Of a DNA stretch of 64,000 bases, positions 17,506 through 51,619 are shown piece by piece; position 1 is the first letter of the stretch; the number at the start of each line of letters is the position of its first letter. The position numbers and the translations under genes are program-made. The stretch lies in the IMG/VR virus record IMGVR_UViG_3300044904_000056, positions 1 to 64,000 of that record. One strand, written 5' to 3'. Origin of the DNA: a virus. A model generated the notes under the pieces. That model was given only the letters and a program-made list of their open reading frames with translations. It searched no databases and was not told the DNA's origin.

Positions 17506-17853
17506 TTATTCTGCTTCAACTGTTAGGCTAGTTGATGCTATTGATGGGTAGAATGCTGGGGTGCTGAAGGTGCCATTAGGAAAGACTGCGCGGACGTAAT
17601 AGACAGTATTGCTAGGTGGAACGGATGAAACTCCTTGTGAAGCAGTAAACGATTGCGGAGTGCTACAGCCCGCTACTGCTAGGCTTCCTACCTTGAGAAG
17701 GATTTTCCGATCTGGGGTTGTTCCGTACTCAAAGGATGCAGGAGAGCCGAATGTAACACAATCGTAAGTCCAATTGTAGGTAACATTGTGGGCGCAAGAG
17801 GCTAATGCTACAAGGCAGAGTAACACTAGCCCCAAGAGTTTGAGAAGTTTCAT
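17506..17853 (-). CDS. Lipoprotein with SPaseII signal
   Basis: 115 residues; ATG 17853 overlaps the previous stop (ATGA) behind GGAGGG. The signal peptide KLLKLLGLVLLCLVALASC ends in a lipobox LASC, so it should be lipid-anchored at the inner or outer membrane. The mature part is Ser/Thr-rich and beta-like (NTVYYVRAVFPNGTFS). Function unknown. Confidence 0.74.
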   Translation of the reverse strand: MKLLKLLGLVLLCLVALASCAHNVTYNWTYDCVTFGSPASFEYGTTPDRKILLKVGSLAVAGCSTPQSFTASQGVSSVPPSNTVYYVRAVFPNGTFSTPAFYPSIASTSLTVEAE

Positions 17854-18359
17854 TGTGCTGCCCTCCTTGCTTCAGACCAAGGCTTGCCTTTCCGCGCTTT
17901 GCTCATTCTGCGGCGTGCTTCCTCAGAATGGTGGTAGCCTAGCGTAGGCGGAATTTGCTTAGCACGAGCTCCCCTCATCTTGCGACGGGTTTCCTTAGAA
18001 GGATGCTTACCTTTCATAGCTTTGCTTAACTTAAGGCGAGTTTCCTTAGAAGGGTGATGGCCTAGGCGGTTCTGATGGCCTTTCATAGCCTCACTCCTTG
18101 TTTGTTTTCTAGGGAATCGAGCAATTCTTGGGGTTTGTAGATATTGGATAGCCTTCTGTAGGAGTTCAGGGCTATCACAAAAGAAGCCAAGGCCAGCGTT
18201 ACACCCGTTACAGAGAACTCCTCGATAACCTCCTGTCCTATGGTCATGATCTAGAGTGGGATGGTCAGGAGGGGCATCACCGCAGATGGCGCAATGCCCT
18301 TCCTGGAGTTTCAGGAAATCCTTTTTCAGCTTCCAAATTGGGTGACTATAGTGTGCCAT
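17850..18359 (-). CDS. EndoVII-like HNH homing endonuclease with NUMOD3 repeats
   Basis: 169 residues. Residues 1-75 match EndoVII (CAICGD, TLDHDHRTGGYRGVLCNGCN), then RFPR at 81-84 and three to four NUMOD3 repeats (SKETRLKLSKAMKGKH type). It is a close paralogue of the protein at 5056-5802 but shorter. It sits between two exported-protein genes and ends in an ATGA overlap with the next. Confidence 0.86.
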   Translation of the reverse strand: MAHYSHPIWKLKKDFLKLQEGHCAICGDAPPDHPTLDHDHRTGGYRGVLCNGCNAGLGFFCDSPELLQKAIQYLQTPRIARFPRKQTRSEAMKGHQNRLGHHPSKETRLKLSKAMKGKHPSKETRRKMRGARAKQIPPTLGYHHSEEARRRMSKARKGKPWSEARRAAQ

Positions 18360-18820: not shown

Positions 18821-21800
18821 CTACTGACTAAACTCTTCTTGCTTACTGGCCCCGAAACCTTGCGGCGTCATCCGTTTGCCTAAGCCTCTTGGATGGCCCT
18901 GGTGGTCTTCAACGTGCTCAACTCGTGGGCGTTGCACCCTATCGCCGTCCTGCTGTTTGAAAGGCTCCATCCCTTCCCGCTTGCGTTTGCGTTCACGAGG
19001 AAAGCGCATAATTGGGACTTCGCTCTCGTGGTTGAAGTTGCCGCTTCGCAGTGACTTGCGGGCGTCGGTCACTTTGCCGCTGAGGCTTCTCTGATCCCGA
19101 ATCTTGTCAGGAGTTTCGATACGATCTGCTCTGCGTCCGATTGCGTGACGCTCGAATCGTAGATTTGCAGCCTCTCGCTTAATGTTTGTTGCAACGTCTC
19201 TCGGGTCAGCAGGCCAAGGTACTCGCTTGCCATCTGCCGTTGAGGCATTATGTGTAGTTGCAAATGAGGAAACACCGCTGTACGTTGACGTTCCTGGAGC
19301 AGTTGCTGGAGCCTCTCTAGATTCGCGGATAGAGGCGAGAGCACGGCCAAAACCCATTCCACTTGATCCCTTACCACTAGCTCCTGACGCGCTACCTCCA
19401 CCAGCCATTCCTCCCGCTTTGCCTTCTGCCTTTTGCTGCATACTATCAACGCCCTTGGTGACCTGTTGGTAGGCAGTGTTGATGAGGAATTCCTTCTGCG
19501 CGTCTTCGTTTGCGATTTCTTCCTGTTCTTCGTCATAGTCATAACTCGTGAACTGCATCTCCTTCGCTGCCGCTGCTGCAACACGCCTGTGACTCCACCA
19601 GCTCATCGACTCGCCAAACGCCAGGTCCTTCAGCTTCTCAGAGCGATTCTCTTCAGCCAGCGCTGGATACGTTGCCTCAACTTTGATGTCAAGGTCACCT
19701 GGAATCTCCTTGCGCTCAGCAGCCCGGACGAATACACGCTGGGCATCCTGGTAGAAGAACTGCTCCATCAGCTCTTGGTAGTCCTCGAAAGTCTTGATAT
19801 CTGGCTCAGTCTCGACAATCGCTCCAGCCTTCCCGCCCTCACCCCCACTTCCCCCAAGATACCGCATCGAGATACCAGAGCCCATCGAGATGAACTGAAG
19901 AATCAGGTCACCATCGGCTTGCGTATCACTCGCCCCAATTTCAGCAGCAACACCTTTCAGTTCTGCGGCCTTGTTGTGGATAAACCAACTACCAGGAATT
20001 GGTGGAGTGTTGAACTGTTGCTGAACCTGTTGAACTGCTGCTGCGTCGCCCTCAACCGAAATATCGAGGACGAACAGGTTGGCCATCTTGTTGCGAACGA
20101 TGCGATCATCTATGTATTCTTTCATGCGCCGCAGATAGCCAAGGACGGTGAACAGCTGACTACGCCCACGCTTCTCTGTCGAGGTGACATTGATCTTCAT
20201 GTGATAGTAATGCAAGGCAGGAATTTGTCTGATGATAAACTTAATCGTAGGAATGGGCAAATCCACATACCACTGGTATTGCGTCGGGTACTGCTGGTGA
20301 CAGTTGTGAACAAATACTCCGCTGGACAAAGCGAAGTTGTGGAACCGTTCCACAGTCAAATCGTAAACCGTATGGATTCCTGCGGGCACCACAGAGACTA
20401 CCTTGTGGTTGGAGAATCGTCCTCTGTCATCATGTTTCTGAGGATAGCTTCGATTAAGCATCCTCTCTCTCTTTTGAGGGTCCTTCCAAGCAGCTTTTAT
20501 TTTCTGACGATGTCTTTCCTTGTAGATGGGGTCTTGGAAATACTCTCTGATGCTCTCTGCCCTGGATTGCTGAGCAGCTAGGATTCTCTCCTGGTGCCAA
20601 GAGGCTAGCAAACGTCTTTCCTGTTTAGTCTGGGCCAAACGAGGAGAGCGGATAATGTATTCGCCCTTTTCAGAGTTTGCTGCTTTCCGCATAGCGTTGA
20701 CAGCCTTGGCTCGCTTCAGAGGGTCAGCCCAGAATTCCTTATGGCTTTGGGATTGTAGTTGCCGTCTCTCTTTCGTCTTCCAAGAGCGATCTCTCCCTGC
20801 ATGCATCTTTGCTATTGTTTCAGGGGTTGGCTTGGGGAGGTCGTCATAAACTCCGTCAGCCCAATCTTTCTTTTTCGATTCACTTATCTTAGCATAGTAT
20901 TCGGCAAAGTGTTCAGGGTCTCTTAGCGTATAGAAGGCTCTTGCCTTGGCGTTATTCTCTCCTACTGTGGCCAGCCAGATGTTCTCTGGGCTGTTGTTCG
21001 CTTGATTCTCATCAAAATGGTCTATTACAATCCCGTGCTCTTTGTAGATGCTCTTTTTCCAGCCTCTGAACTCAGAAGCAACCCGCTGGTGTGTTTGTTC
21101 CCAGCCTTGGTCAGGTTGATAGACTTGCTCGTAGCCTCTCTTGCGATAAAGAGGCATCAGGCCCATCCCTGGCTTCAAGTCCTCCGCGTTTAGGTAGGTT
21201 TCTCCATCACGCAGAAGATAAGGGTGGTCAAAGGATACGATGTCGCTCTTACCGTTATCTAGAGTGACTTTTACACAGCGCCGTTTCCCAGTCTTCCATA
21301 CTTTGGTAATTTGTCCAGGGACGACCAGATGGCGCTCTTCATCGAAAGAATATGCCCAGAGCTTTTTCCCTCGTTTGAATTCCCTCCGTGCCTTCCTGAC
21401 GGAAAGTTCCCGACCATCCAGTAGGGAGATTTTTGTTGGTCCCGAGAGGCAGTAGAATTCATTTTGGACATCGTCTGGGTCTGTAATCACCTCCCAGATT
21501 GTTGAAGGGTCCAAGCTCCGAAGCCTCAATCCCCAAGGAGCATCGTAGTAGCGGATGAACTGTTCCCCAAAGATTACCAAGTCTTGCAGTATTTGTTTCG
21601 ATGTCGTGTGCAAAGAATTCTTCATCCAGTGTCTATCCAAAGCATCCTGGCAAGCTACAGTGTAATCCTGGTAGACAGGGACAGGCTGCCCGTTAATCGG
21701 ATGCGGCTGCATCTGTCCTGTCTTTTGCTCAGCACGCATTACTGTTAGCCGAACGCCCTTACCTAATGTGAATTGTTTAATCACGTCTACAATTCTTTTT

Positions 21801-22606
21801 GCGCACGGATTATGTGTCCATGCCTCGAATGCTTTACTGTGCATGTCGAGATAGTCAAAGTAATACAGCTGCTTGTTGTAAGGGCCAGCAATCAGCGGTG
21901 TGAATGGTGGGACCCTTCCGCCCGTTTCAAAGCTCATCCCTCCATCCCAGTCAGGCTGCAGGCTTCCTGTGAAGCCCCCAATATCACTTTCGCGGAAACG
22001 CTTCATCAAGACTTTGTCCCGCGCGTTGACAGCAGTTACCAGCTTGGGATTGAACCTAATGCCGATTGGTGTGCTCTGATCGGCTGCTTCCTTGAGCTTC
22101 GTTTTCTTCGCCATCCGTATGATCTGCTGCACGCTGGCTGCTGACTCACGGAGTCTCTTGTAGTGGTCACTCTTGATATACTCCACCATCGTGGGATAGT
22201 GTGCTTCGCGGAAGATGCCTTTACGCATCTGGTTCTCGGTGGAGATGATGAGCTTGGCATCGATGTCCATCACGACAGCTTCTCGGAGGTAGGTAATGCC
22301 GTTGCCTTGCGCCGTCTTGTCAATGTTACCAAAGTCCTTCAAGGATTGCAGGTAGGTGCCAGTATCAACCAGCCCAGGCATCATCGCAGCGTAAGGCTTC
22401 ATTTTCGGCTTCTCGTCTGCAAAAGAGAAGGTGTTTGTCAGGAGAGGCGCACCTTCATCGATGTAATCCTTGCCCGAATTGAAATCATCTTTCTTCTTTG
22501 TCTCTTTTGCGCGAGCCTCGATGATTTGCCGATGCTTCTCCGTAGTGAAAGGCAAAGCTCCGGTGATAGCTTTGCTGTTGCCAGGATTATTGACGCCTGT
22601 TGCCAT
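18821..22606 (-). CDS. Portal protein with in-frame intein
   Basis: 1261 codons. Removal of the intein (residues 386-768) leaves an 878-residue portal-like protein. The N-part carries YYFDYLDMHSKAFEAWTHNP and FGEQFIRYYDAPWGLRLRSL, then the C-part CHQQYPTQYQWYVD and MKEYIDDRIVRNKMANLFVL. These match large portals of phages whose portal follows TerL. The C-terminal 250 residues are low in complexity (Gly/Ala/Ser) and highly charged, with RFPR at 1201-1204. The portal dodecamer would form the DNA gate of the head. It sits downstream of both terminase genes and starts at ATG 22606. Confidence 0.83.
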   Translation of the reverse strand: MATGVNNPGNSKAITGALPFTTEKHRQIIEARAKETKKKDDFNSGKDYIDEGAPLLTNTFSFADEKPKMKPYAAMMPGLVDTGTYLQSLKDFGNIDKTAQGNGITYLREAVVMDIDAKLIISTENQMRKGIFREAHYPTMVEYIKSDHYKRLRESAASVQQIIRMAKKTKLKEAADQSTPIGIRFNPKLVTAVNARDKVLMKRFRESDIGGFTGSLQPDWDGGMSFETGGRVPPFTPLIAGPYNKQLYYFDYLDMHSKAFEAWTHNPCAKRIVDVIKQFTLGKGVRLTVMRAEQKTGQMQPHPINGQPVPVYQDYTVACQDALDRHWMKNSLHTTSKQILQDLVIFGEQFIRYYDAPWGLRLRSLDPSTIWEVITDPDDVQNEFYCLSGPTKISLLDGRELSVRKARREFKRGKKLWAYSFDEERHLVVPGQITKVWKTGKRRCVKVTLDNGKSDIVSFDHPYLLRDGETYLNAEDLKPGMGLMPLYRKRGYEQVYQPDQGWEQTHQRVASEFRGWKKSIYKEHGIVIDHFDENQANNSPENIWLATVGENNAKARAFYTLRDPEHFAEYYAKISESKKKDWADGVYDDLPKPTPETIAKMHAGRDRSWKTKERRQLQSQSHKEFWADPLKRAKAVNAMRKAANSEKGEYIIRSPRLAQTKQERRLLASWHQERILAAQQSRAESIREYFQDPIYKERHRQKIKAAWKDPQKRERMLNRSYPQKHDDRGRFSNHKVVSVVPAGIHTVYDLTVERFHNFALSSGVFVHNCHQQYPTQYQWYVDLPIPTIKFIIRQIPALHYYHMKINVTSTEKRGRSQLFTVLGYLRRMKEYIDDRIVRNKMANLFVLDISVEGDAAAVQQVQQQFNTPPIPGSWFIHNKAAELKGVAAEIGASDTQADGDLILQFISMGSGISMRYLGGSGGEGGKAGAIVETEPDIKTFEDYQELMEQFFYQDAQRVFVRAAERKEIPGDLDIKVEATYPALAEENRSEKLKDLAFGESMSWWSHRRVAAAAAKEMQFTSYDYDEEQEEIANEDAQKEFLINTAYQQVTKGVDSMQQKAEGKAGGMAGGGSASGASGKGSSGMGFGRALASIRESREAPATAPGTSTYSGVSSFATTHNASTADGKRVPWPADPRDVATNIKREAANLRFERHAIGRRADRIETPDKIRDQRSLSGKVTDARKSLRSGNFNHESEVPIMRFPRERKRKREGMEPFKQQDGDRVQRPRVEHVEDHQGHPRGLGKRMTPQGFGASKQEEFSQ
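20303..21451 (-). other. Intein with HNH homing domain inside the portal gene
   Basis: 383 residues between Tyr385 and Cys769. Block A is CLSGPTKISLLDG with Cys1; block B is IVSFDHPYLL; block F is YDLTVERFHNFAL; block G is GVFVHN with terminal Asn, and the +1 extein residue is Cys. All key splicing residues are present. The insert includes an HNH-type segment (IVIDHFDENQANNSPENIWL) and a basic repeat region, so it is probably a mobile homing intein. Splicing would restore QNEFY-CHQQY. Confidence 0.9.
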
Positions 22607-25286: not shown

Positions 25287-26488
25287 GCTGCCTCGCTTGT
25301 CTCTGGAATTAAATAAAAATAGCCGTCCTGGTCATTCTGCCAAATCTGCTCTGAATCGAAGAAGCGTAACCAATCAATATTGAATATTGCTCCTTCTTCA
25401 GCGCTAATCTCGTTCTGCTTCTCCCTATCGAACGATACGCTGCCCTGTGCTACTCTATCCATCAGCAGTTCCCGGATTCCCCACCCGAAAATTCTGGGCT
25501 TTCCATCAGGCTCGAATACCAACGCGCCGTCATCGTCAACTGCCTGGCTGCTAGGCCAAAGCACTTCGTAATCATCCGTCAGCAGCTCAACGTCAGTAAT
25601 CGTTTCCTCATACGTGATTTCGTGAAGGCCTCGGACATGTCGGCCACGGTCTGTAACGTAGAGCCAGCCCTGAATCATCTTGTCGGGTGCTGCTGGGTCC
25701 GGTATCATCGGGTACTTGATGACTGCCCGCTCGATGTTCTTCTTCCAGACAGGGGATTTGATGCAAGTGTTGTAGAGGTCCCGGCGATTCTTTCGTGTGC
25801 CCGTCATCCGTATCTTCGTGTAATTCTCACGGAGGTTCCAAATTGTGCCCCAGAACCAGTTTTCAATCGCGTCCATACGCTCGCTGGTCCTAGTATTTTC
25901 ATCGTCAAGGATGTCGTCTAGGTTAATATGGTCGAAGTGCGCCCCAGTGATTGCCCCGAGGACGCCTACCATTTCATAGGTATGGTCCTTCTCCGCCTTG
26001 TCAATGATTGTCCTTTGGCAATCGAATTCTCTCTGAAGCCAGTGGGACTGGTCGCGGATATCCCCAAAATCCTCCTTCAACCAGACGTTAGCATCGATGG
26101 TGCTCTGTGTCTGGCTAGCATATTTGAGTGCTGCCTTATCGGTCTTGGAGACTTGGAGGAATCGCTCCGTTACACTCTCACATTTTCCTCGGACCAGGTT
26201 CGCATAGATTTCATACAGCGGGGCACCATAGGAGAATATCCAGGACTTGCCGTGATCTCGGGGGGCTAACTCTAGAAGGAATTTGACGTTCCAGAGAGCA
26301 ATCCAGTTACGCTGGTGCAGAGGAAGTCTGAACCCAAGATAGTAGAGTAGGAAGAACTCAGGAGATTGCGGCACCAAGGCTCTCCGAAACTCTGGAGAGA
26401 TGTACCGCCGAATCAGCTGTCTGACTCCGTTGATGCCCTTTGCCTGGCTGATTTCGTCAACCAGTTTTTGCTTGTTGTTCTTCTTCAC
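25283..26488 (-). CDS. Terminase large subunit, ATPase part (split)
   Basis: 401 residues, GTG 26488 behind AGGGAG. Residue 70 region FLLELAPRDHGKSWIFSYGA is the Walker A-like motif; FDHINLDDILDDEN is the Walker B with catalytic acid; KIRMTGTRKNRRDLY fits the coupling motif. It stops after DGYFYLIPETSEAA, where a complete TerL would continue into the nuclease, found instead at 23521-24189. It powers DNA packaging through the portal. It overlaps the small terminase by 32 nt. Confidence 0.85.
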   Translation of the reverse strand: MKKNNKQKLVDEISQAKGINGVRQLIRRYISPEFRRALVPQSPEFFLLYYLGFRLPLHQRNWIALWNVKFLLELAPRDHGKSWIFSYGAPLYEIYANLVRGKCESVTERFLQVSKTDKAALKYASQTQSTIDANVWLKEDFGDIRDQSHWLQREFDCQRTIIDKAEKDHTYEMVGVLGAITGAHFDHINLDDILDDENTRTSERMDAIENWFWGTIWNLRENYTKIRMTGTRKNRRDLYNTCIKSPVWKKNIERAVIKYPMIPDPAAPDKMIQGWLYVTDRGRHVRGLHEITYEETITDVELLTDDYEVLWPSSQAVDDDGALVFEPDGKPRIFGWGIRELLMDRVAQGSVSFDREKQNEISAEEGAIFNIDWLRFFDSEQIWQNDQDGYFYLIPETSEAA

Positions 26489-27134
26489 TTGCTCCCTGCG
26501 GTGGAGGAAGTTCCTTCAAGACTTTTACATCAATGATCTTCAGATGTTCTGCCGGGGCCTGTATGCCCTTTGCCTGCCCTAGTAGAGCCTCGATGAAGAG
26601 CTTGGTGGTGTTACTATCGAGGTGATGGGATACATCTATGGCTTCCTGAACCTGAATGGTACTCTTTACGTCCTTCTGGATATCGGTGCTCCGGCGGTAC
26701 TTCCCCCGGCCAGTTAGCAGCTTCTCCGCTGCGTTGTAGGCTAGATATGGGTCGCGGCTGCCTAGCGTTTCTTCTACAACGCGGATGGCCCTGCCTAGGT
26801 TACCGTCTAGCCGCATCTCAGAGTTCTCCCGAATCTTATGAGCATATCTTCGGAAATACTCCCGGAACAAGCGGTGCCCATTCAGCCAGCGATAATAGGT
26901 AGTCTGGCTGACCTTGTATTTCTTGAGGGCTTCTTGAATCGGAGCACCAGCAATAATCGTCTTGATGAGCTTCTTCATCCGAGGCGTTACAGTCTTCCAA
27001 CGCTTAGGCTGTAAGCCCATTGCCAGAATAGCCTTCGCACGCTTGTTGACTGTGAGATGTTGGAGATTCGGAATCGCCATGGGGTATTCCTCATACGTTC
27101 TGGGGAAGCGTTGGATTTTCTTTTCTTTCGACAC
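26457..27134 (-). CDS. Terminase small subunit-like DNA-binding protein
   Basis: 225 residues from GTG 27134 (GAGAGG). A helix-turn-helix (GAPIQEALKKYKVSQTTYYR then WLNGHRLFREYF) at about residues 60-95 is followed by a helical oligomerisation region, as in small terminases that bind pac sites. RFPR lies at residues 9-12. It directly precedes the TerL ATPase gene. A late-type motif stands upstream. Confidence 0.8.
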   Translation of the reverse strand: MSKEKKIQRFPRTYEEYPMAIPNLQHLTVNKRAKAILAMGLQPKRWKTVTPRMKKLIKTIIAGAPIQEALKKYKVSQTTYYRWLNGHRLFREYFRRYAHKIRENSEMRLDGNLGRAIRVVEETLGSRDPYLAYNAAEKLLTGRGKYRRSTDIQKDVKSTIQVQEAIDVSHHLDSNTTKLFIEALLGQAKGIQAPAEHLKIIDVKVLKELPPPQGASEEEQQAKTG

Positions 27135-32588: not shown

Positions 32589-32849
32589 TTAGACGCTCCC
32601 CACATCCGTAGTGTCTGTCTCCATACCAATCTCATAAGGCACTAGTGTTTCGTACACCTTTGTTGTTCGAGCCTTGTTGCAACCCCGACAGCGGTAATGA
32701 TGCCGGCTACCAACATACATCTTTTGAGCCGGAGCAAAGCTAGTCGCAGGTTTGATGTAGGACACCCACTCAATCTTTATTTCCACATCATCGTGGTTGA
32801 AACAATGCAGCAATCGTTCCCAAAATGTCATCTCTTCCCAAGGTTTCAT
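32589..32849 (-). CDS. Small hypothetical protein
   Basis: 86 residues; ATG 32849 overlaps the previous stop (ATGA). It contains HHYRCRGCNKARTTKVY, a Cys-x2-Cys with adjacent His residues, possibly a half zinc finger. Function unknown. Confidence 0.6.
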   Translation of the reverse strand: MKPWEEMTFWERLLHCFNHDDVEIKIEWVSYIKPATSFAPAQKMYVGSRHHYRCRGCNKARTTKVYETLVPYEIGMETDTTDVGSV

Positions 32850-33337
32850 CCGATTTTCACCGTGCGCGGAAACCTCCGCGTCCTTTCCTCGTCTCTGTCT
32901 TTCAGCAGGTACTTCTCGCCCTTGAGAACTTGTTTCATGTTGTCAAGGTGCAATCCGTAAGCTTCCCGTAGGAAACGGAAATCCTCCACATCGTGAGGTA
33001 CTGTTTTTCTGTAGCCCCGGGAGCCTTCCTCGTGGCCGTCTTCGGGGATGTGCACTGCTTCGTGGAGCATCAGGAATACCTTGAAATAGTCCTCCGCAGC
33101 ATCGTACCGCGTTGACCAGACGGATATCACATAGTCATAGTCGGGCAGAAGCAACGACCAGGGTTTGCGGTTCGGATAAATTCTTGCGCCTACCTTGCTA
33201 GACGCGCTGGTATATCCTACCAGAGCTATCCGGCTCGTATGCACGTGCCCGAGGATTGTTGGGAAGAGCTTCTTGGCCCGTTTCAGGTCTGCCCTGTAAT
33301 CGTCTCTCAGCTCCCAGAATTTGCTAGTGCGGCCCAC
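32846..33337 (-). CDS. Phage metallopeptidase-domain protein (HExxH)
   Basis: 163 residues, GTG 33337. VFLMLHEAVHIPEDGHEEG carries the zinc HExxH motif, followed by a third His in VPHDVEDFRFLREAYGL, matching the 'putative phage metallopeptidase' family. The N-terminus includes a beta sheet (YDYVISVWSTRYD). RFPR lies at 155-158, five residues from the end. The substrate is unknown; members are often next to replication genes. Confidence 0.84.
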   Translation of the reverse strand: MGRTSKFWELRDDYRADLKRAKKLFPTILGHVHTSRIALVGYTSASSKVGARIYPNRKPWSLLLPDYDYVISVWSTRYDAAEDYFKVFLMLHEAVHIPEDGHEEGSRGYRKTVPHDVEDFRFLREAYGLHLDNMKQVLKGEKYLLKDRDEERTRRFPRTVKIG

Positions 33338-33505
33338 CTACTTTTCCCTCATCATCTTACAGCAGGGGCATCTCCAGGAAACAAATAGGAAATGCCCTAG
33401 CCTAGCCCACCAAGGCCAGCGGTTCATCTGATCTTCATGCTGAGCCATTGCTAGGGCTTTGGGGAAGACTTCCTTTTTGAATCGCTCCCAATTCTCTTCA
33501 CTCAC
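33338..33505 (-). CDS. 55-residue hypothetical protein
   Basis: GTG 33505 lies behind AAGGAG (8 nt). It begins VSEENWERFKKEVFPKALAM and ends with a Trp-rich segment and CPCCKMMREK. A longer in-frame reading would cover the RFPR mini-gene and is not favoured. Function unknown. Confidence 0.55.
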   Translation of the reverse strand: MSEENWERFKKEVFPKALAMAQHEDQMNRWPWWARLGHFLFVSWRCPCCKMMREK

Positions 33506-33647
33506 GGGGGAATCTCCTTTGCTTCCAGCTATCATACCGTTTCGCGCATTCCTCATTGCAGAAATTCCGGCGGTACTTAGCACTGTAAATATGTGTCGGT
33601 TTCAAGCAGATGCAGGTCTGCTTGTCTAGCCTCGGGAATCGCCTCAT
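33498..33647 (-). CDS. 49-residue zinc-knuckle protein with RFPR at both ends
   Basis: ATG 33647 overlaps the previous stop (TGATG). The protein reads MRRFPRLDKQTCICLKPT, then CNEECAKRYDSW and ends KQRRFPRE. A treble-clef-like Cys pair (CIC and CNEEC) sits between two RFPR motifs at residues 3-6 and 45-48. No family was recognised. It is the clearest sign that RFPR is a selected element rather than a chance word. Confidence 0.62.
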   Translation of the reverse strand: MRRFPRLDKQTCICLKPTHIYSAKYRRNFCNEECAKRYDSWKQRRFPRE

Positions 33648-33829
33648 CAAGCTTCTTCTGGCCTAGCAATATCAAGTAGCACCTTCAGGTTCTTGCCAGA
33701 TTGCTTGAGAAGGTCCCACATCTTAGTGCAGACTGAAGCGTGATCAACCTTTTCCGCCGCATACTTCTTTCTAGTTTTTCCTGTACGGCTGAATTGTTTC
33801 CCACACTCACAACGTCCTCCGTATTTCAA
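33647..33829 (-). CDS. 60-residue zinc-knuckle protein
   Basis: TTG 33829 behind GAGGTG. CECGKQFSRTGK and ASVCTKMW give Cys residues for one zinc site; the end is helical. Function unknown. Confidence 0.55.
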   Translation of the reverse strand: MKYGGRCECGKQFSRTGKTRKKYAAEKVDHASVCTKMWDLLKQSGKNLKVLLDIARPEEA

Positions 33830-33837: not shown

Positions 33838-34779
33838 TCACTTCGTATCAAGTTCCTCAAATGGTGTAATCCATTGAGCGAAATTCTTCAGTAGTGACTG
33901 GAACGACTTGCTGATGAAGTAGCGCGTAATCTCAGCTTTGTCAATCTTGCCGCGCTGTCGTACAGCCTCAAAGACAACCCGGCGTACCTTTTTCTCTTCT
34001 GGGTGATTATAGGAAGAAACAGAAAGGTCCATAAGCATCAGATTCAAATAGTATCTCTCGCGGACTCCTTTTCCATAGAGCAGCCGGTAGCGGTTGCCCC
34101 GCTTGTAGACTTTCTTCTCCACCTCGGGGGTGAACAGCTCTTCCATATCCTTGTAGGAAGCTAGAAGCTCCCGGATGGTTGTCTCGCCTAGACCTTTAGC
34201 AATTCCTGGAATGTTGTCACTCCCATCTCCTATCGCTGCCCGAAGCTGAAGAAATTGATGCGGGGTGAGTCCCACCTTCTGCCGGAAGTTGCCGTGCGTA
34301 TAGAGTTGCGTCTTTATCGGACTCCATACGCTGGTATTCTCTTGAACCAGTTGGAACATATCCATGTCCGAGGAAACAACAATCCGCTGCCCGTTCAAAG
34401 CTTTCTCCTGGCATATCATAGCTATCAAATCGTCAGCTTCTGTCTGAGGGAAGTACAGCTGCGAAAGATTCAGCTGCCGGAGGACTCGCTGGCACTCCTC
34501 GATTTGAGTGATGGTACTCTGAAATTGTTTTTCCTCTTCCTTCGTAAAGTGCTGATGTCGGTGGGCCTTATATTCAGGGAACTTCTGCTTGCGGTAGGCA
34601 CTATGCCCTGTATCCCAGCAGACAATCCCAACATCCGGCTGAAACTGAGCTAGCATTCCGTGGATAGCATTCAGAGCGCCATAGACAACTTGGACTGGTT
34701 TTCCGTTCGCTGTAAGAATCGGGAGGCGCTTGGCAATGCGCCAACAGAGATTGTGACCGTCAATGATGATGGTTTTCAT
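33838..34779 (-). CDS. 5'-3' exonuclease/flap endonuclease
   Basis: 313 residues, with the start placed at ATG 34779, overlapping the previous stop (ATGA) and opening MKTIIIDGHNLCWRIAKRL. Acidic sites follow: VCWDTGHSAYRKQKFPEYKA, TEADDLIAMIC, VSSDMDMFQLV, and the helix-hairpin-helix GDGSDNIPGIAKGLG. This is the T5/T4 RNase H-type family that removes RNA primers and flaps. It lies just downstream of the UvsX-like gene. Confidence 0.92.
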   Translation of the reverse strand: MKTIIIDGHNLCWRIAKRLPILTANGKPVQVVYGALNAIHGMLAQFQPDVGIVCWDTGHSAYRKQKFPEYKAHRHQHFTKEEEKQFQSTITQIEECQRVLRQLNLSQLYFPQTEADDLIAMICQEKALNGQRIVVSSDMDMFQLVQENTSVWSPIKTQLYTHGNFRQKVGLTPHQFLQLRAAIGDGSDNIPGIAKGLGETTIRELLASYKDMEELFTPEVEKKVYKRGNRYRLLYGKGVRERYYLNLMLMDLSVSSYNHPEEKKVRRVVFEAVRQRGKIDKAEITRYFISKSFQSLLKNFAQWITPFEELDTK

Positions 34780-35102
34780 ATCAGGTCCATTGTCGCTTGC
34801 CTTCCGTACACTTGTGCCGCTGATAGATACTTCCCATCCTTGTAAGTCATCATTCCCCAAAACCACGAAGCCATATGTTCTGGGCCGCAGCAACAATCTA
34901 TAGTTGCATCTATCATCCAGAGTGCATCGGCTCCAAAGTTCAGACAATTTCTTCCGTAAGCAAGAGAAACTGCACCAAGAGGACTACATGCAACTCCTAC
35001 TGCCTGCTCTAGCCCACATACTTCGCACATCAACTTTTCGCCTCCGGGAAAAGTCTGGTCATGGAGTTCCTTCGCTTTGTGGTAACTAATCAACCCACTC
35101 AT
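34776..35102 (-). CDS. Hypothetical protein, cysteine-rich
   Basis: 108 residues from 35102, where ATG overlaps the UvsX-like stop (ATGA) behind GGAGGGGG. CEVCGLEQAVGVACSP and a C-terminal CCCGPEH are notable, and a Trp-rich segment follows. Possibly metal-binding. Function unknown. Confidence 0.62.
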   Translation of the reverse strand: MSGLISYHKAKELHDQTFPGGEKLMCEVCGLEQAVGVACSPLGAVSLAYGRNCLNFGADALWMIDATIDCCCGPEHMASWFWGMMTYKDGKYLSAAQVYGRQATMDLI

Positions 35103-36163
35103 TCCCCCTCCAGACAACTCGCCTTACGCAATGCAGAGTCAATCTCCTCCTGATGCCTCGAATAGTATTTGGCGAGACTGCTGCGGGTCACGACATCCTT
35201 CCCGAAACGGTAAGTGGATTTGTTGCGAGTGAAAACTCCCCGGTCAACTGCGTACTCCCAAACTGCTTGAACTTTGTCTATCCCCTTCCCCCAGAGAATC
35301 GGAAACTGACAGCGCGTTTCATTTAGTCCTACCTTGTTTTTCACCACTTGCAATTCAATGAGTGCTCCGATTCTGTCCCCATCTCCGTTCTTGAGGCTTT
35401 TGATCTTCGCCGTTCGGCAGCGTACCCAGGAGTAGAATTTGAGAGCTTTTCCGCCATAGGTAGTCTCTTTGCTGCCCCAGGTCACGCCTATGTTTGTCCG
35501 GGTTTGATTGACACAGATCAGGCAGACTCCGTTTGTCCGTAGGAACTTCACCATACGCCTGAAAAACCTCGATATTTGCAGAGCTGATCTCCCCATATCG
35601 CTCTTATCCAAGCTGGCTTTTTCCTCTATCTCGCTCCTGGTAGGTGTTGACGCTACAGAATCCCAGCCAAATACGATGGGTGTCGTCTTATCCTTCTCCC
35701 GAAGCGTTTTCACTGTCTCACGGATGTAATCATAAATGTCCTCGATGGTCTCGCACTCGTCAAATATCAGGAGGCGCTTTACGTCAATGCCAACCTTCTT
35801 CATCCGCTTGTAGTTGGCAGAGTATTCGGTCGGAAAAAGTCCTGCATAATAGTCAAGATGTTGAGCTTCCGCTATTATGTTCTCCATCACCCCAGTTTTG
35901 AATGATCCTTCTGGCCCAAATATCTCAATGATCCCAGATGGGAACCCAAGGCCATAGCAAACGCAACAATCTACTGAAATGATCCCGCTTGGGACATAGA
36001 CCAGGGGCTGCGAGAAGATAGAGTTCTCCAGAGTGGTAAGAACCCCATCGCTATGTTCCTTTTCAAACTTCTTATTGATAGCCTCTACTGCTGAGAACAA
36101 AGTCTTGTCCTGTACCCCTTTGTACCCAGATGGGCCTCTGTACCTCGGAAATCTTGGTGGCAT
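35099..36163 (-). CDS. UvsX/RecA-like recombinase
   Basis: 354 residues. Walker A is EIFGPEGSFKTGVMENI, in the GP..SFK form typical of T4 UvsX rather than bacterial RecA; Walker B is TPIVFGWDSVAS; loop L2 region is TTYGGKALKFYSWVRCR. RFPR lies at residues 4-7. It catalyses strand exchange in recombination-dependent replication, working with the gp32-like (36377) and UvsY-like (37342) proteins in the same operon. Confidence 0.92.
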   Translation of the reverse strand: MPPRFPRYRGPSGYKGVQDKTLFSAVEAINKKFEKEHSDGVLTTLENSIFSQPLVYVPSGIISVDCCVCYGLGFPSGIIEIFGPEGSFKTGVMENIIAEAQHLDYYAGLFPTEYSANYKRMKKVGIDVKRLLIFDECETIEDIYDYIRETVKTLREKDKTTPIVFGWDSVASTPTRSEIEEKASLDKSDMGRSALQISRFFRRMVKFLRTNGVCLICVNQTRTNIGVTWGSKETTYGGKALKFYSWVRCRTAKIKSLKNGDGDRIGALIELQVVKNKVGLNETRCQFPILWGKGIDKVQAVWEYAVDRGVFTRNKSTYRFGKDVVTRSSLAKYYSRHQEEIDSALRKASCLEGE

Positions 36164-36164
36164 G

Positions 36165-36353
36165 CTATTCCCCGCCTAGGAACTTGCCTTCAATCTCGTT
36201 CAGTTTTCGGACATCATCCAACGTTGTTGTACCTTCAAGGAGGTGGTCGCATACCTCCTTGAAAGTGTCGAGGTCTGATTCAGTCATCAGAGGAGTAACC
36301 GTCCTGAGAAATGCGACTGTTGAAGAGATTGCTCCACTGAATGACTCAATCAT
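36165..36353 (-). CDS. 62-residue protein in recombinase operon
   Basis: ATG 36353 with AAGGGA. Acidic helical protein (TESDLDTFKEVCDHLLEGTT). It lies between the UvsX-like and gp32-like genes with no gap. Function unknown. Confidence 0.58.
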   Translation of the reverse strand: MIESFSGAISSTVAFLRTVTPLMTESDLDTFKEVCDHLLEGTTTLDDVRKLNEIEGKFLGGE

Positions 36354-36376
36354 TTTGTTCCCTTCTCCTGTTCGCG

Positions 36377-37330
36377 TTAGTGATGATGATGATGATGTTG
36401 CTTCTTTTTGCGCTCTATCTTACGCTGAAGCTCCTTGTACTGCTTTTCAAGGTCATCCTCATCTGAACTGTCTTCAGAATGGTCGCTGTTATCGGACTTA
36501 TCGCTGCTATCCTCGGATTTGTCAGAAGCATCCGAATCATCGGACGCATCAGACTTATCCGCATCGGAGCTATCATCTGAGTAGTCACTTCCGTCCTCCT
36601 CAGCCGCTATGTGTTTCGCAACCTTCTCCATCTTAGCAACGAAGGTTTCAATCTCTTCGCTGCTGCTCGCACTGACGATTTCATCCAGGTTGGTCAAGGT
36701 CTTGAGGAGCTTATGCCGCTCGTGCTCGTCTGAGGAGATTGGCGTCTCCTTCTCCATAACCTTGAAGTGGTAGTCCGTATCGTCCCGCCCCTTGCCTTCC
36801 CGCTTCACACGGATCAGCCGGCCATATTTCGGATGGGCTACTCCTAGGACTGATTTCCTCCGGTAGTCATCGTCAGAGAAAATTTCTAGCACAAGATTCT
36901 GCCATTTAGCAGAAAGCCGCAGGAGCTTGAATTGCCTATCCTCATACTTCCGGACTTCAATCGTACCATCGCTATGTTTCTTGACCTTGGCTCGGAGGAT
37001 GTTCCAGATACTCTCAGATTTCTGCCGTAGCAGCCCAAATAGAGCCTTAGCAACGGGCGAGCGTTCCTTCTTGACTTCCTCCCAACGGCGGCAGGCTTTG
37101 CACTTCCCTGGCTTGCCTGTCTTCTCGTCAACATCGTTCTTTCCACAGTAGACTTTGTTCTTGAAATCTCCATGGAAGAGAACATCCTTCCAAACTTCGC
37201 CATCCTTCTCCCAAGGAGGCCCAATGCGGAAGTACCATTCTCCTGGGTCAAAGCTCGTCCAGGGGCGGCCACTTGTTTTCTTCTTCCTCTTGGAAAGTTC
37301 CTCACGAATTTCTTCAGCCGTCTTCGTCAC
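36377..37330 (-). CDS. gp32-like single-stranded DNA-binding protein with acidic and His tail
   Basis: 317 residues, GTG 37330 behind GGGAGG. RPWTSFDPGEWYFRIGPPWE and a likely zinc site His53, Cys62, Cys77, Cys80 match the core of T4 gp32-type proteins. From about residue 245 the tail is almost only Ser, Asp and Ala/Lys (DSSDADKSDASDDSDASDKS), then a coiled coil (DEDDLEKQYKELQRKIERKK) and a natural six-histidine end. The acidic tail of gp32 recruits partners; here it is much longer. It sits in the recombinase operon. Confidence 0.83.
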   Translation of the reverse strand: MTKTAEEIREELSKRKKKTSGRPWTSFDPGEWYFRIGPPWEKDGEVWKDVLFHGDFKNKVYCGKNDVDEKTGKPGKCKACRRWEEVKKERSPVAKALFGLLRQKSESIWNILRAKVKKHSDGTIEVRKYEDRQFKLLRLSAKWQNLVLEIFSDDDYRRKSVLGVAHPKYGRLIRVKREGKGRDDTDYHFKVMEKETPISSDEHERHKLLKTLTNLDEIVSASSSEEIETFVAKMEKVAKHIAAEEDGSDYSDDSSDADKSDASDDSDASDKSEDSSDKSDNSDHSEDSSDEDDLEKQYKELQRKIERKKKQHHHHHH

Positions 37331-37341
37331 TATTGCCTCCC

Positions 37342-37966: not shown

Positions 37967-37979
37967 ATCCGCTCCTGTT

Positions 37980-42816: not shown

Positions 42817-42829
42817 CTAGATAGAACGC
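42817..42829 (-). promoter_or_regulatory. GCGTTCTATCTAG motif
   Basis: It overlaps the last codons and stop of the gene at 42817-43686 and stands just before the GAGGAGG RBS of the ThyA-like gene. It is identical to the copy at 15307. Confidence 0.5.
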
Positions 42830-43686
42830 TCCCCTCTAGGAAAACGTAAGTTGCCTTGGAACCCGTTGTAGAGAGAGCGAGGCCTGCCTTCTCCCAGACG
42901 TACCCGCTCATACTTGTCCCACTCACAAAGTGCATTCTGCAAATCCTGCGCATGTATGTCCGGCATTCCTGCTTGAAAAATTTTCGGGCTGATTTTGTCG
43001 TAGAGTTCGTCTAGGCATTCCTTCCAATCCGCTTCCTTCCACTTAGCCCTCTTATCCCGCCCTATTACACGATTCAACCCTCGTTTGCTCCCAGGGCCAG
43101 AGATAGCCCAAGTTGACCAATCCTTTGCGTGCCGAAGCGTAGCATACTTCACATCAGCAATGACCTGCCCTGTCATAAAGCTTCCCATATCTTTCTGGTC
43201 GTGCAGCCTGTCGTAGAATTCCGCAAGCGTATCGCCATCTCTCGGGCGGATTTCTTTTCTTGCTCCCCACATCGGTGTCAGGACTTGCTTGGCTAGGTAT
43301 CGGGCTTTCGATTGATGATCTGGACCTGCGTGAATCATATATGCTCCGGTGAAGACTTTCTCGCCGTCTTTCTTTCGCTGCTCCAATACTCTGATGAACT
43401 CGTCTGGGTGCCAAGGAACAGGATAACCTAGCTCATCTAGGGTCTCCGGCCAATTGACAAAACGTGAAACCGTCATAGCGAACCAGAGGTCCTTATCTTC
43501 CGCGTGAGGCTCCCGCCAATGCTCCCGTACCCAAATCGTGACCGTGTCTAATTCCCGGAACACGTTGCAGAACCGATAGCGCTGAAGTATTGGGTCCCGT
43601 GTCCATGGTCGAGGCTTGCCAGCTTGCTTCCGCTTGTAGATTGCGTGGCGTTCAAGGATGAAGCGAAGGAGAGGATTGATGTTCAT
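42817..43686 (-). CDS. Alpha-glutamyl/putrescinyl-thymine pyrophosphorylase-like protein
   Basis: 289 residues, ATG 43686 overlapping the previous stop (TGATG). RYRFCNVFRELDTVTIWVRE and FTGAYMIHAG match the aGPT-PPlase families described for phage base hypermodification, which replace the pyrophosphate on hydroxymethyl-uracil in DNA with an amine or amino acid. It neighbours a ThyA-like enzyme and a P-loop kinase that would supply earlier steps. RFPR lies at residues 281-284, near the C-terminus. Family assignment is from motif memory. Confidence 0.78.
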   Translation of the reverse strand: MNINPLLRFILERHAIYKRKQAGKPRPWTRDPILQRYRFCNVFRELDTVTIWVREHWREPHAEDKDLWFAMTVSRFVNWPETLDELGYPVPWHPDEFIRVLEQRKKDGEKVFTGAYMIHAGPDHQSKARYLAKQVLTPMWGARKEIRPRDGDTLAEFYDRLHDQKDMGSFMTGQVIADVKYATLRHAKDWSTWAISGPGSKRGLNRVIGRDKRAKWKEADWKECLDELYDKISPKIFQAGMPDIHAQDLQNALCEWDKYERVRLGEGRPRSLYNGFQGNLRFPRGERSI

Positions 43687-44398: not shown

Positions 44399-44399
44399 T

Positions 44400-45023
44400 T
44401 TAATACCCAAGGAACCATCCCCACAACCAAGCTAGAATAGTTTGTAATCCATCCTGATAAGGGATAACTCTGACATCTGCCCCTACTTCTCTGAGTCTCT
44501 TCTCACTACCTAATACGGCCTTGTATTTTGGATAGAGGGATTTGTCCGGGTCAACTGGCCGAGGGTCCTTCCGCTGAATCCTGCGCTTTACCATCCGCTG
44601 AAGGCACTTCTCTAAGGGGGTATCCATAAAGCCAAATATCCAATGCGTATGCGGTAGGCTTCTTGCCAGGTCAATCCAACGCTGGGTCAGGGTAGCAGCC
44701 AGCGCTCCCTCGAAAACAACATTCCCCCGCCTGGAAAGGTCTGTGATTGCCTTGGAAGCGTAATCGGCACGGGTGCTGCCCCTGTAATAGCTTTCGTCAA
44801 TCGCGTCATAGCCGCCCGTTGTTATCCGGTAAGGCCCAAGCAGGGCTGTCTTCGTAGGCCCTGTATCGAGGACGTAGGCGAGCACCTTTCCATTCCCAGG
44901 GTTAATCAGAGGCGTATTGGAAAAGCTCTCTAGAAGGGATTTTGCTAGGGTTGTCTTGCCACTGGCATTCGTGCCCCTGATGTTGATGACGATATGCTTC
45001 AGCCGAGGAAATCGTTCCGTCAT
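44400..45023 (-). CDS. P-loop kinase, hydroxymethyl-dU kinase-like
   Basis: 207 residues; ATG 45023 overlaps the phosphatase stop (ATGA). HIVINIRGTNASGKTTLAKS is the P-loop, in the IRGT.ASGKTT form of the phage kinases that phosphorylate hydroxymethyl-uracil in DNA; GNVVFEGALAATLTQRW and MDTPLEKCLQRMVKRRIQRK give the lid and phosphate-binding arginines. RFPR lies at residues 4-7. Context (ThyA-like and aGPT-PPlase-like) supports base modification; a general nucleotide kinase is the alternative. Confidence 0.76.
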   Translation of the reverse strand: MTERFPRLKHIVINIRGTNASGKTTLAKSLLESFSNTPLINPGNGKVLAYVLDTGPTKTALLGPYRITTGGYDAIDESYYRGSTRADYASKAITDLSRRGNVVFEGALAATLTQRWIDLARSLPHTHWIFGFMDTPLEKCLQRMVKRRIQRKDPRPVDPDKSLYPKYKAVLGSEKRLREVGADVRVIPYQDGLQTILAWLWGWFLGY

Positions 45024-45610: not shown

Positions 45611-46219
45611 CTAGGGGCCTATCCGGGGGAAGCGTAGGGGGCCAGTCCTCCTGGCCCTGACTATTAGCTCAACAGTAGCCTTCAGCTTCTCCGCTGGGTG
45701 AAAGTAGAAGAACTTAGCTTGGGCCGAGAAGATAGGTATATGCCGCCACTTCCTAGCCGGAGGCTTCGCATAGCTCACGACCTCCATCCCCGCTAGCATC
45801 TCGTTCACACGTTCCCGGTGTTTTTGGACAAGGGCGTAGGGCTGTTCTAGGTAGAACCAGCAGCCCGGATATTGCAGCCACTGTCGGATATTCCAATGGT
45901 CCTGGGTATGCTCCGTCTGCTGAAGGGGAGCCACCCCTAGAGGCAGAATCACCGTAGAGTCCGGAGGGGGCCAAGTGTGGACTGGCTTGAGCATCTCTTT
46001 CCAATCGCAATCTCCTCCAATATAGTTGTATCCTTGCCAGTAAGCACCTACAGCATCGGCGTAAGTCTCCGCATCCCGCAGGGAGTTCTTCTTCACAGGG
46101 ACCATAGTCAGAATGGTAACCTGCTTGCCTTCCTGAATCCACTGCTCGATATGAGCCCCTAGCGAAAGGAAGGCATCATCACTGTGAGGCTCTACGATAA
46201 CCAGGCGGTCATTTATGGG
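45611..46219 (-). CDS. PIG-L family deacetylase
   Basis: 202 residues from GTG 46219, behind GGAGG (7 nt). LVIVEPHSDDAFLSLGAHIE is the metal-binding PHxDD(E/A) motif with Ala at the last position; a later TQDHWNIRQWL supplies His. PIG-L enzymes remove N-acetyl groups from sugar conjugates. RFPR lies four residues from the end (196-199). With the glycosyltransferase and methyltransferases nearby it suggests maturation of a sugar group on DNA or on a surface glycan. Confidence 0.82.
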   Translation of the reverse strand, partial: PINDRLVIVEPHSDDAFLSLGAHIEQWIQEGKQVTILTMVPVKKNSLRDAETYADAVGAYWQGYNYIGGDCDWKEMLKPVHTWPPPDSTVILPLGVAPLQQTEHTQDHWNIRQWLQYPGCWFYLEQPYALVQKHRERVNEMLAGMEVVSYAKPPARKWRHIPIFSAQAKFFYFHPAEKLKATVELIVRARRTGPLRFPRIGP

Positions 46220-46814
46220 CACGTTTCGGCCTCCGGAAGACGCTGAGATGCCGCCCATACCAGTTGGAAGTAATTCTTTCGTCAGCTAATATCGCTTCGC
46301 ACAACTCCTTGGTGACCTTCTTTTCAAAGGTGAATCCGGCAAGCACAAATAGTTGCCGCCAATAGCCTTTAGGCTTGCAGTTCACGTGGTACCGGCCCCA
46401 TTCAGAAGAGTCGATGGACAGGAGCACCCATTTTGAGGAGAGCCGTTTCACCGTATCCACTAAGACTTTCTCAGAGGACTCCGGGATGTGCTCGAATACA
46501 TCCCACGAGGTTACCAGGTCAAATTTTTTGTCCAAATGGAAGGACTTTGATAGGTCGTGGGCTATGTATTTCGCTCCTTCCGCGAATCTGCTGTTGAACT
46601 CAGAACCATCCACCCCATAAGCCCTTACTCCTAGCTCTGACAGCCGATTCACAAACGACATCGTACCACAACCCAGGTCAATGCAACGCTTGGGGTGAAA
46701 TCTGTTGAAGATGAGCTCTGCTAGATATTTCGAGGACACGTGGGGTCCTTTTGTGGACCTGGTGCGATTTTTGAACCACTTCAGTGGATAGAGTTCACTT
46801 AGCTTTTCTTCCAT
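46209..46814 (-). CDS. SAM-dependent methyltransferase
   Basis: 201 residues. Motif I RCIDLGCGTMSFVNRLSELG, then YGVDGSE, and KFDLVTSWDVFEHIPES match class I methyltransferases of the type acting on sugars or small molecules. It overlaps the homing endonuclease upstream by 16 nt and the PIG-L gene downstream by 11 nt. The substrate is unknown. Confidence 0.84.
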   Translation of the reverse strand: MEEKLSELYPLKWFKNRTRSTKGPHVSSKYLAELIFNRFHPKRCIDLGCGTMSFVNRLSELGVRAYGVDGSEFNSRFAEGAKYIAHDLSKSFHLDKKFDLVTSWDVFEHIPESSEKVLVDTVKRLSSKWVLLSIDSSEWGRYHVNCKPKGYWRQLFVLAGFTFEKKVTKELCEAILADERITSNWYGRHLSVFRRPKRAHK

Positions 46815-47308
46815 AGTCGTGGGAACCTCATCGGGAAATTAGGTCTTGCAAATTCTCCGAAAAATTCTTTGGCAGCAGTATCATAAGCCTTCGCTGCGGC
46901 TATCGGATTGTCGAAGGAACCTAGATGAATAACTTTCCAATATACACAAATCTGCGCATACCATTTCCTAGCACCTTTGTGCCAAGAGACACCTTTGAAT
47001 CCTGATTTGTTATTTGAATGCTTTCCTTGGTTAGCCAGATTCTGCGAGTTAGAAGCATCTCTCAAATTATCTTTTTGACAATCTAGCCCATTTCCATTCT
47101 TATGGTCTATCCCTTTGCGCCCTAATATAAAATTGTGTAGAAGAAAATTAGGAACTCCCATTTGTCCGTGAGCTGCGTACGACTTACCCTTAGAGCCAGA
47201 TGTATAGTGCCATATGCCCTCAGCTGTTACACGTTCATAATCTTCGTCATCAACAAGTGCATAGGCTCTTATCTTTCCTTTTCGATTGCGAAGCGGAATT
47301 TTCTTCAT
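46799..47308 (-). CDS. HNH-AP2 homing endonuclease
   Basis: 169 residues; ATG 47308 overlaps the previous stop (ATGA). HNH core: FLLHNFILGRKGIDHKNGNG and CQKDNLRDASNSQN. AP2 DNA-binding domain: SGFKGVSWHKGARKWYAQIC, then HLGSFDNPIAAAKAYDTAAK. RFPR lies at residues 161-164, five from the end. Free-standing mobile element inserted between the glycosyltransferase and methyltransferase genes. Confidence 0.9.
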   Translation of the reverse strand: MKKIPLRNRKGKIRAYALVDDEDYERVTAEGIWHYTSGSKGKSYAAHGQMGVPNFLLHNFILGRKGIDHKNGNGLDCQKDNLRDASNSQNLANQGKHSNNKSGFKGVSWHKGARKWYAQICVYWKVIHLGSFDNPIAAAKAYDTAAKEFFGEFARPNFPMRFPRLWKKS

Positions 47309-50983: not shown

Positions 50984-51619
50984 CTACTTGCCTATTTTGG
51001 CTTTCCGGCGAGGCGTGGAAACCTTCTGACTCCTGGAAAGCGGTCTCTTCTTGGGAACAGCGGCTCTCTTGGTTTGCGCTTTATTCTTGCCAATTCTTCC
51101 TCCGTGTACACGACGTACTCGACTGGGATTTTTCTTCCATGCGTTGATGGAATGCTTAGGACCACGTGGCGCTTTCCGGTTGCTGGGTCTACTCTTTCGC
51201 TTTTGAACTTTGCTTCTGGGATCAGTTTTCTCAGGCTGGACAAAGTCGCATTTGCGTAATTTGACCTCGGCTCTACGGATGCGCTTTGGGAAGGACTCAG
51301 AGCCGATGAGCTTCCTGCACTTGAGACAACGGACTGTGCTTGCACCTTCTACCTCCTCTCTGCCTGATGGGCAATGGCATATCTCTGAAGGTACATCTCT
51401 TGGGAATCGGAGGGGCCTTGGATACCGCTTGATTGACCGGGGAGTTCTGACCGTTATCATACTCCAAAACCAATTTTGCCTAGTCTGGTCTTTCTGGGTC
51501 CACACTTGTACCCCAAATTTGGGGAGCAATTTGTAGACCTTTCCAGTGCGCCCGGTAACGGTATCCACAACATACGTCACTCCAGGGATGATAACTTTCT
51601 CACCGTAGGCCCCATCCAT
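50984..51619 (-). CDS. Zinc-knuckle protein with basic tail
   Basis: 211 residues, ATG 51619 behind AGGAGG. It starts as a small beta domain (VIIPGVTYVVDTVTGRTGKV then YKLLPKFGVQVW), then KRYPRPLRFPRD (RFPR 71-74) and a Cys set CHCPSGREEVEG...CLKCRK. The last 90 residues are strongly basic and low in complexity and overlap another plausible frame (50992-51345). Function unknown. Confidence 0.66.
   Translation of the reverse strand: MDGAYGEKVIIPGVTYVVDTVTGRTGKVYKLLPKFGVQVWTQKDQTRQNWFWSMITVRTPRSIKRYPRPLRFPRDVPSEICHCPSGREEVEGASTVRCLKCRKLIGSESFPKRIRRAEVKLRKCDFVQPEKTDPRSKVQKRKSRPSNRKAPRGPKHSINAWKKNPSRVRRVHGGRIGKNKAQTKRAAVPKKRPLSRSQKVSTPRRKAKIGK
50992..51345 (-). other. Overlapping alternative frame ending in RFPR
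   Basis: In the other frame of the 3' half of the 50984 gene, residues LRKLIPEAKFKSERVDPATG, VEYVVYTEEELARIKRK and a C-terminus RDRFPGVRRFPRLAGKPK read like a natural protein. It ends with RFPR plus seven residues, as several other proteins here do. There is no good start (TTG 51345), so it could be reached by frameshifting, or one of the two frames is a shadow. Confidence 0.35.

Follow-up and report, generated by a model that had tools for sequence, protein, structure and literature searches.

RFPR, a tetrapeptide recurring in unrelated proteins of one phage lineage, as a candidate docking tag with a multi-copy carrier protein

The tetrapeptide RFPR recurs in many unrelated proteins of one lineage of uncultivated phages, and the sequences make it close to certain that it is a real motif of the whole lineage. 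In the reading that we prefer, to which we assign a probability of roughly 0.55, RFPR is a modular docking tag of this lineage, and a 49-residue protein that carries the tag twice would be a bivalent adaptor. In the following paragraphs, we describe the gene for this protein, the statistics of the motif, the families that carry it and the genomic position that the small protein occupies, and then weigh this reading against other explanations.

The window analyzed here is a stretch of 64,000 nucleotides, positions 1-64000 in a virus record, G000, of 104,040 bases. The record has the gene content of a tailed phage, including terminase, portal, tape measure, RecA/UvsX, PolA, DnaB, primase and SSB genes (PolA and some others are named by sequence resemblance). 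Relatives were collected from viral_contigs with four queries, namely RecA, the large terminase, the metallopeptidase and a conserved protein of 193 aa; the metallopeptidase query returned from that collection no contigs beyond those already gathered. G005 and G009, which agree to 100% over 9,535 bp, belong to a single virus, as do G015 and G016, and the lineage consists of 11 distinct uncultivated phages, G000 included. Several of the records are fragments or partial contigs; in particular, the G006 contig breaks exactly at the thymidylate-synthase/kinase region, so that the absence of those genes from it is uninformative. No member of the lineage is close to a named phage: against the phages collection, all the matches of three lineage proteins were below 60% identity. 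Genes were identified with a simple purpose-made caller that missed several short genes, the 49-aa gene among them, and the RFPR counts obtained from called proteins are therefore low.

The product of the 49-aa gene is read on the minus strand from an ATG at 33647 to a stop at 33500-33498. The initial annotation had described it as a knuckle protein in which RFPR, at residues 3-6 and again at 45-48, brackets a Cys core, and translation of the open reading frame confirmed this description, with C12-x-C14...C30-x3-C34 lying between the two copies. The features of the locus are as follows.

33498..33647, minus strand: two-copy RFPR protein with a CxC...CxxxC knuckle, 49 aa (open reading frame, with homologues in the corresponding position of G007, G010 and G015/G016, and of G012 by motif only)
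33630..33641, minus strand: N-terminal RFPR, residues 3-6 (translation)
33504..33515, minus strand: C-terminal RFPR, residues 45-48 (translation)
33647..33829, minus strand: upstream 60-aa open reading frame, the stop of which overlaps the knuckle ATG by 1 nt (TGATG)
33338..33505, minus strand: downstream open reading frame if started at GTG 33505, an inferred start, with an 8-nt overlap with the knuckle gene

Judged by its reading frame and homologues, the gene is real. Coupling to both neighbors had also been claimed for it; the 1-nt overlap bears this out on the upstream side, and on the downstream side the claim holds only if the GTG start is correct. When the knuckle protein was searched against the phages collection, seven records were obtained, the best at an E-value of about 1, and these were not used.

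In the called proteins of the 104-kb record, RFPR occurs 14 times against about 0.22 expected (121 proteins), and in the lineage as a whole it occurs 82 times against 1.39 expected (11 viruses, 736 unique called proteins, 170,999 aa), so that a chance origin is excluded at the proteome level. The count of 82 leaves out G016, since G015 represents that virus already, and a duplicate protein of G009, which is one virus with G005; an earlier total of 83 includes the duplicate G009 protein, and the set of 749 called proteins referred to below likewise includes duplicates. Each of the 11 other permutations of these letters is found 0-15 times in the same pooled proteins, where the maximum of 15 belongs to RRFP, whose count is partly nested inside RRFPR. 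The called proteins of three outgroup phages (27-33% RecA identity) contain 0, 1 and 0 copies of RFPR. Together, the permuted letter orders and the outgroup phages rule out an artefact of composition. As a further motif control, 80 genome_contigs RecA loci, which carry bacterial-genome RecA of at most 36% identity and served for this control only, were translated in six frames; here RFPR occurs 76 times and the other letter orders 56 times on average.

At the nucleotide level, a degenerate pattern for RFPR, with which SFPR codings also agree, has 19 matches on the coding strand of the record, and its reversed form has 3. Translated in all three frames, the coding strand of the G000 record contains 19 copies of RFPR, many of them at protein ends. 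Over the 82 sites of the lineage, the motif is encoded by 64 different 12-mers, with all six Arg codons in use, which rules out an element acting at the DNA level. The sequences show the conservation of RFPR to be at the level of the peptide, not the DNA.

The copies are concentrated near protein ends: 64 of the 82 lie within 20 residues of a terminus, where 22.6% would be expected. In a single-substitution profile, it is mainly position 2 that is tolerant (H, Y or W), and exchange to Lys is not enriched at either Arg; the variants RYPR, RHPR and RWPR occur alongside RFPR in some members (in the slot protein described below and gene A of G012, and in the slot protein of G011). Glu or Leu frequently follows the motif directly, and the flanks are mildly basic, with a mean charge of +0.114 per residue as against +0.042 at untagged termini. 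When the motif was masked and 75 tagged proteins (the called ones plus five slot proteins added by hand) were clustered, they fell into 28 unrelated groups, one of which unites portal and HNH proteins, probably because the portal intein has an HNH domain. The motif recurs in unrelated proteins beyond chance, lies in flexible segments and is conserved while its flanks change, and these are the properties by which short linear motifs are recognized. Among the papers listed in a literature search, judged from titles and the beginnings of abstracts, there was no account of RFPR as a phage motif, and broader searches on such motifs listed nothing relevant.

The genes of the window that bear on this question, tagged and untagged, are listed here.

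5056..5802, minus strand: HNH-type protein, internal RFPR at residue 81 (named by sequence resemblance)
17850..18359, minus strand: HNH-type protein, internal RFPR at residue 81 (named by sequence resemblance)
18821..22606, minus strand: intein-containing portal protein whose C-terminal tail carries RFPR (residue 1201 of 1261; family matches and alignment)
26457..27134, minus strand: protein resembling the small terminase subunit, with RFPR at residue 9 (phrog matches weak, the best at E 8.9e-05)
32846..33337, minus strand: phage metallopeptidase of 163 residues with RFPR at 155 (PF18894, E 3.5e-10)
33838..34779, minus strand: 5'-exonuclease, untagged, on the upstream side of the slot (named by sequence resemblance, not by a family call)
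35099..36163, minus strand: RecA/UvsX recombinase, RFPR at residue 4 (PF00154, phrog_97)
36377..37330, minus strand: SSB-like protein with a long acidic tail, untagged, one candidate hub (phrog_15004, E 1.6e-05)
42817..43686, minus strand: 5-hmdU DNA kinase helical-domain protein (HMUDK_hel), RFPR at residue 281 of 289 (PF18723, E 3.9e-47)
44400..45023, minus strand: 5-hmdU DNA kinase-like P-loop kinase with RFPR at residue 4 (PF18748, E 3.1e-06)
45611..46222, minus strand: PIG-L-like deacetylase with RFPR three residues short of the C-terminus (PF02585, sub-threshold, E 0.00077)
46799..47308, minus strand: HNH-AP2 endonuclease, RFPR near the C-terminus (phrog_99, E 8.1e-40)
50984..51619, minus strand: gene A, in which RYPRPxRFPR precedes a CHC...CxxC stretch (sequence)
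50992..51345, minus strand: gene B, which overlaps gene A in a different frame and has a C-terminal RFPR (sequence)
54234..55616, minus strand: FtsK/SpoIIIE-like translocase with RFPR in the linker that precedes FtsK_alpha (PF01580, PF17854)
61475..62143, minus strand: conserved 222-aa protein, RFPR at residue 7 (no family match in Pfam or phrog; 5/5 tagged)

Several other observations were made on these genes and this record. Genes A and B overlap in different frames, and both are conserved in relatives and both carry RFPR. Inside the intein of the portal gene (18821-22606, minus strand) there is an HNH endonuclease domain. In most relatives, a segment of the type [DE]LExxYKxMK recurs in the tail of the SSB, and the tail of the G000 protein ends in six natural His residues. 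The thymidylate-synthase-like, HMUDK_hel and P-loop kinase genes at 41613-45023 (minus strand) suggest that the thymine of the phage DNA is hypermodified. A second motif, RLRE(A/S), is present in 11 G000 proteins (0.74 expected), often proteins of the structural region and in several cases near the N-terminus, with examples beyond the window at 93590-94684 and 98582-99289; it also occurs in G002, G006, G005 and G012, and is possibly a signal for virion assembly. Finally, GMKWG, often in the form HGVKGMKWG, is found in several proteins, namely at 2956-4278 of the window, at 34359-41808 of G012 (five proteins in that virus), in the G001 portal and at 10892-11284 of G011.

Across the lineage, every copy found is tagged with RFPR in the case of RecA (11/11), the small terminase TerS (7/7), the 222-aa protein (5/5), gene B (4/4, with one to three copies each) and a glycosyltransferase-like protein (2/2). 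Most copies are tagged for the FtsK-like protein (7/8, the eighth having RYPR instead), the portal (6/7, the identical seven proteins being found with an N- or C-terminal query), gene A (exact RFPR in 6/8, R[FYW]PR in 8/8), the metallopeptidase (6/9) and the P-loop kinase (3/4), and a minority for HMUDK_hel (4/9) and HJR (1/5). No tag is found in PolA, SSB and the UvsY-like protein (0/11 each), the exonuclease (0/10), SbcD and thymidylate synthase (0/9 each), SbcC (0/8), TerL and HU (0/7 each), DnaB, primase, helicase and tape measure (0/5 each), or a capsid-like 364-aa protein (0/4). In alignments of the portal, the metallopeptidase and HMUDK_hel, RFPR is kept while the surrounding tail changes. 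The HMUDK_hel homologue of Pseudomonas phage PAE1, a single record from outside the lineage, ends without an RFPR tail. Two aspects of this distribution count against a docking tag: RFPR is internal in three HNH-type proteins and in FtsK, and tagging within a family can be incomplete, as for the metallopeptidase, HMUDK_hel and HJR.

The 49-aa gene occupies a slot behind the 5'-exonuclease gene. This slot can be seen in ten distinct viruses, nine of which have the metallopeptidase gene next to it; for G010, no metallopeptidase match was found in a partial contig that includes the exonuclease region. In all ten viruses, the slot holds a small protein with at least two copies of RFPR or R[YH]PR. 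Exact RFPR is present at least twice in eight of them, and the remaining two have RFPR and RHPR (G011), or RFPR, two RYPR and RHPR (G012). Such proteins are rare, since at least two copies of R[FYHW]PR are found in only 14 of the 749 called proteins. The core of the slot protein is a knuckle in G000, G007, G010 and G015 (and, by Cys pattern only, in G012), an unrelated helical core in G001, G002, G006 and G011, and a third sequence in G009. When the alignments of knuckle and helical proteins were compared as profiles, only the motif was joined. The position of the copies varies as well: they lie at both ends in G000, G001, G002, G006 and also G011, where the second copy is a variant. G007, G010, G012 and G015 have them in series, at the N-terminus or close to it, and the copies of G009 lie close to the C-terminus. 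Among knuckle proteins, the bracketed layout is seen in G000 only, the other homologues having N-terminal copies in series.

Because cores and copy positions vary and all ten slot proteins are multi-copy, the feature that is kept in the slot is the number of tags, not the two-ended layout or the knuckle. The initial annotation had proposed a search of relatives for the same two-ended architecture; what they share is the presence of at least two copies (10/10), and neither the layout with one copy at each end nor the Cys-rich core is conserved. Its broader proposal of a docking peptide with a bivalent carrier is accordingly upheld in part, in that the comparative evidence fits it but the two-ended architecture and the knuckle did not prove to be general. 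We also considered the knuckle as a universal reader of RFPR, and this is ruled out by its absence from the four helical-core viruses and from G009.

In the five aligned knuckle sequences, C12, C14, C30 and C34 are invariant and would supply four Cys ligands. The Pfam family zf-FCS (PF06467) matches the G000 knuckle at 19.0 bits (E 0.0012), below its gathering cut-off of 22.4, and is not among the Pfam matches of the G010 homologue; the DUF2116 treble clef (PF09889) reaches 10.7 bits against a gathering cut-off of 26.8. Structure prediction gave a hairpin and a helix at residues 32-45 with moderate confidence (pLDDT 70.7), and Foldseek returned 43 matches for this model, none at E<=0.001, the weak ones being MYND, zf-HIT and similar fingers. 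The knuckle may resemble treble-clef zinc fingers of the MYM/FCS and MYND types in its FC(S)xxC knuckle, which leads into a helix, and in its predicted hairpin and helix; it differs from them in its first Cys pair, which is CxC here and CxxC in those fingers. For the helical slot protein of G002, a three-helix core was predicted with a pLDDT of about 90 and the RFPR tails (residues 1-16 and 68-75) with a pLDDT below 50, so that the tails are predicted to be disordered around a folded core. Foldseek found no match to the helical core at E<=0.001. A PDB sequence search gave three matches, the best at E 0.72.

If RFPR is a docking tag, it would work as a short linear motif, that is, as an address label read by one common partner, which may come from the phage or the host. 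The sequence pattern makes docking to a protein likely, and we infer a DNA-associated partner, positioned on replicated DNA or close to it. Its clients would be the recombinase, the packaging and portal proteins, the FtsK-like motor, the base-modification enzymes and the nucleases, each bearing one copy in a flexible tail or linker, and the untagged proteins would form the basic replication set. The partner would then hold the tagged proteins, which would handle DNA after replication, near the phage DNA. Carrying two copies, the 49-residue protein could bind two partner molecules, or two sites on an oligomer, and in this way cross-link or cluster them; bridging of this kind by the slot protein is plausible from its multi-copy sequence. 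The core would serve as a spacer or second binding site that can be replaced, by a knuckle, a helical bundle or the third sequence. One candidate for the partner is the SSB, because it is untagged in 11/11 viruses and acid-tailed and because gp32 of phage T4 recruits via its C-terminal region.

An extended form of this proposal is that late DNA metabolism in these phages is organized by a plug-in code, in which RFPR in a tail or linker gives admission to a shared DNA-associated assembly, and a multi-copy adaptor builds or cross-links the assembly, its core having been exchanged on at least two occasions while no fewer than two tags were retained. We put this form forward tentatively, at somewhat less than even odds; if true, it would mean a virus-made recruitment code that is simple in sequence and has its own connector protein. 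Even for the docking tag by itself, tagging alone would place dozens of phage proteins in one assembly and show which of them work together, the motif would provide a ready bait for the hub and a minimal tag with which to send any protein there, and the lineage would offer a rare view of a virus interaction network built from a reusable peptide.

RFPR may instead be a nucleic-acid hook, similar to an AT-hook, that gives its carriers an extra grip on phage DNA, in which case tandem and two-copy proteins would be DNA cross-linkers. The specificity for Arg, which does not exchange with Lys, suits such a hook, the mildly basic flanks would fit as well, and many of the tagged proteins act on DNA. 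However, the Phe-Pro order is strictly required in RFPR, whereas AT-hooks do not need it, and Glu or Leu often comes next after the motif. Moreover, the PIG-L-like, glycosyltransferase-like and portal proteins are tagged, but PolA, primase, helicase and HU, all of which meet DNA, never are, and we regard the hook as unlikely. The tag may also be a reader of hypermodified thymine; the lack of thymidylate-synthase and kinase genes in G006 does not speak against this, since the contig breaks there. Alternatively, multivalent RFPR together with acidic low-complexity tails, such as those of the SSB, could act as a sticker that concentrates clients in a condensate or replication compartment, with the two-copy protein as the glue. 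Two Arg, a Phe and a Pro are fitting sticker chemistry, tandem copies occur, the slot proteins are multivalent, and acid-rich C-terminal stretches are present in 10/10 SSB proteins examined (short in G010). Against this, strict order and identity favor a shaped pocket over generic stickers, and no compartment is known for phages of this lineage; we consider it rather unlikely.

RFPR might also be the recognition site of a phage or host enzyme, either a protease or an arginine-modifying enzyme, for which the PF18894 metallopeptidase encoded in the adjoining gene is the obvious candidate. The two invariant Arg residues and the accessibility of tails and linkers are in keeping with this idea. It is difficult to reconcile, however, with G010, where the slot protein and a tagged RecA are present and the partial contig, exonuclease region included, has no metallopeptidase match, or with the metallopeptidase being tagged itself in 6/9 copies, and cleavage so near the start of RecA, at a distance of three residues, would have little effect. 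We hold an enzyme site to be very doubtful, and the docking tag remains the reading with which the comparison below is made.

The closest working analogy is the C-terminal sliding-clamp-binding motif of phage T4. This motif is present on gp43, gp55 and gp33, is interchangeable, sits on a flexible linker and tethers its carriers to a DNA-bound hub (PMC2988020). Like RFPR, it is short, terminal and attached to unrelated phage proteins. The T4 motif is hydrophobic and acidic, C-terminal and known from three named proteins, whereas RFPR is basic, lies at the N- or C-terminus or in a linker and extends to about 28 families. A phage-encoded sliding clamp (PF02916, PF00712, PF00705) was found in none of four records (G000, G001, G002 and G006, possibly fragments), in a search whose PF02916 control was above cut-off in none of 14 genomes; a clamp of the host may also serve. 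In T4, the flexible C-terminal tail of gp32 recruits recombination and helicase proteins to the phage DNA (PMC11551737); the recruiting tail is on the hub there, whereas in the RFPR lineage it is the clients that bear the motif, the SSB having no tag. Import through PicA into the chimallivirus nucleus is another case of the selective sorting of phage proteins, including RecA (PMC11087766). In the sections of that study of nucleus-forming phages considered here, a simple signal was sought and no conserved motif or terminal signal was reported (PMC11087766). In contrast to the PicA system as described there, the present lineage has a simple recurring tetrapeptide, and its RecA is among the proteins that carry it.
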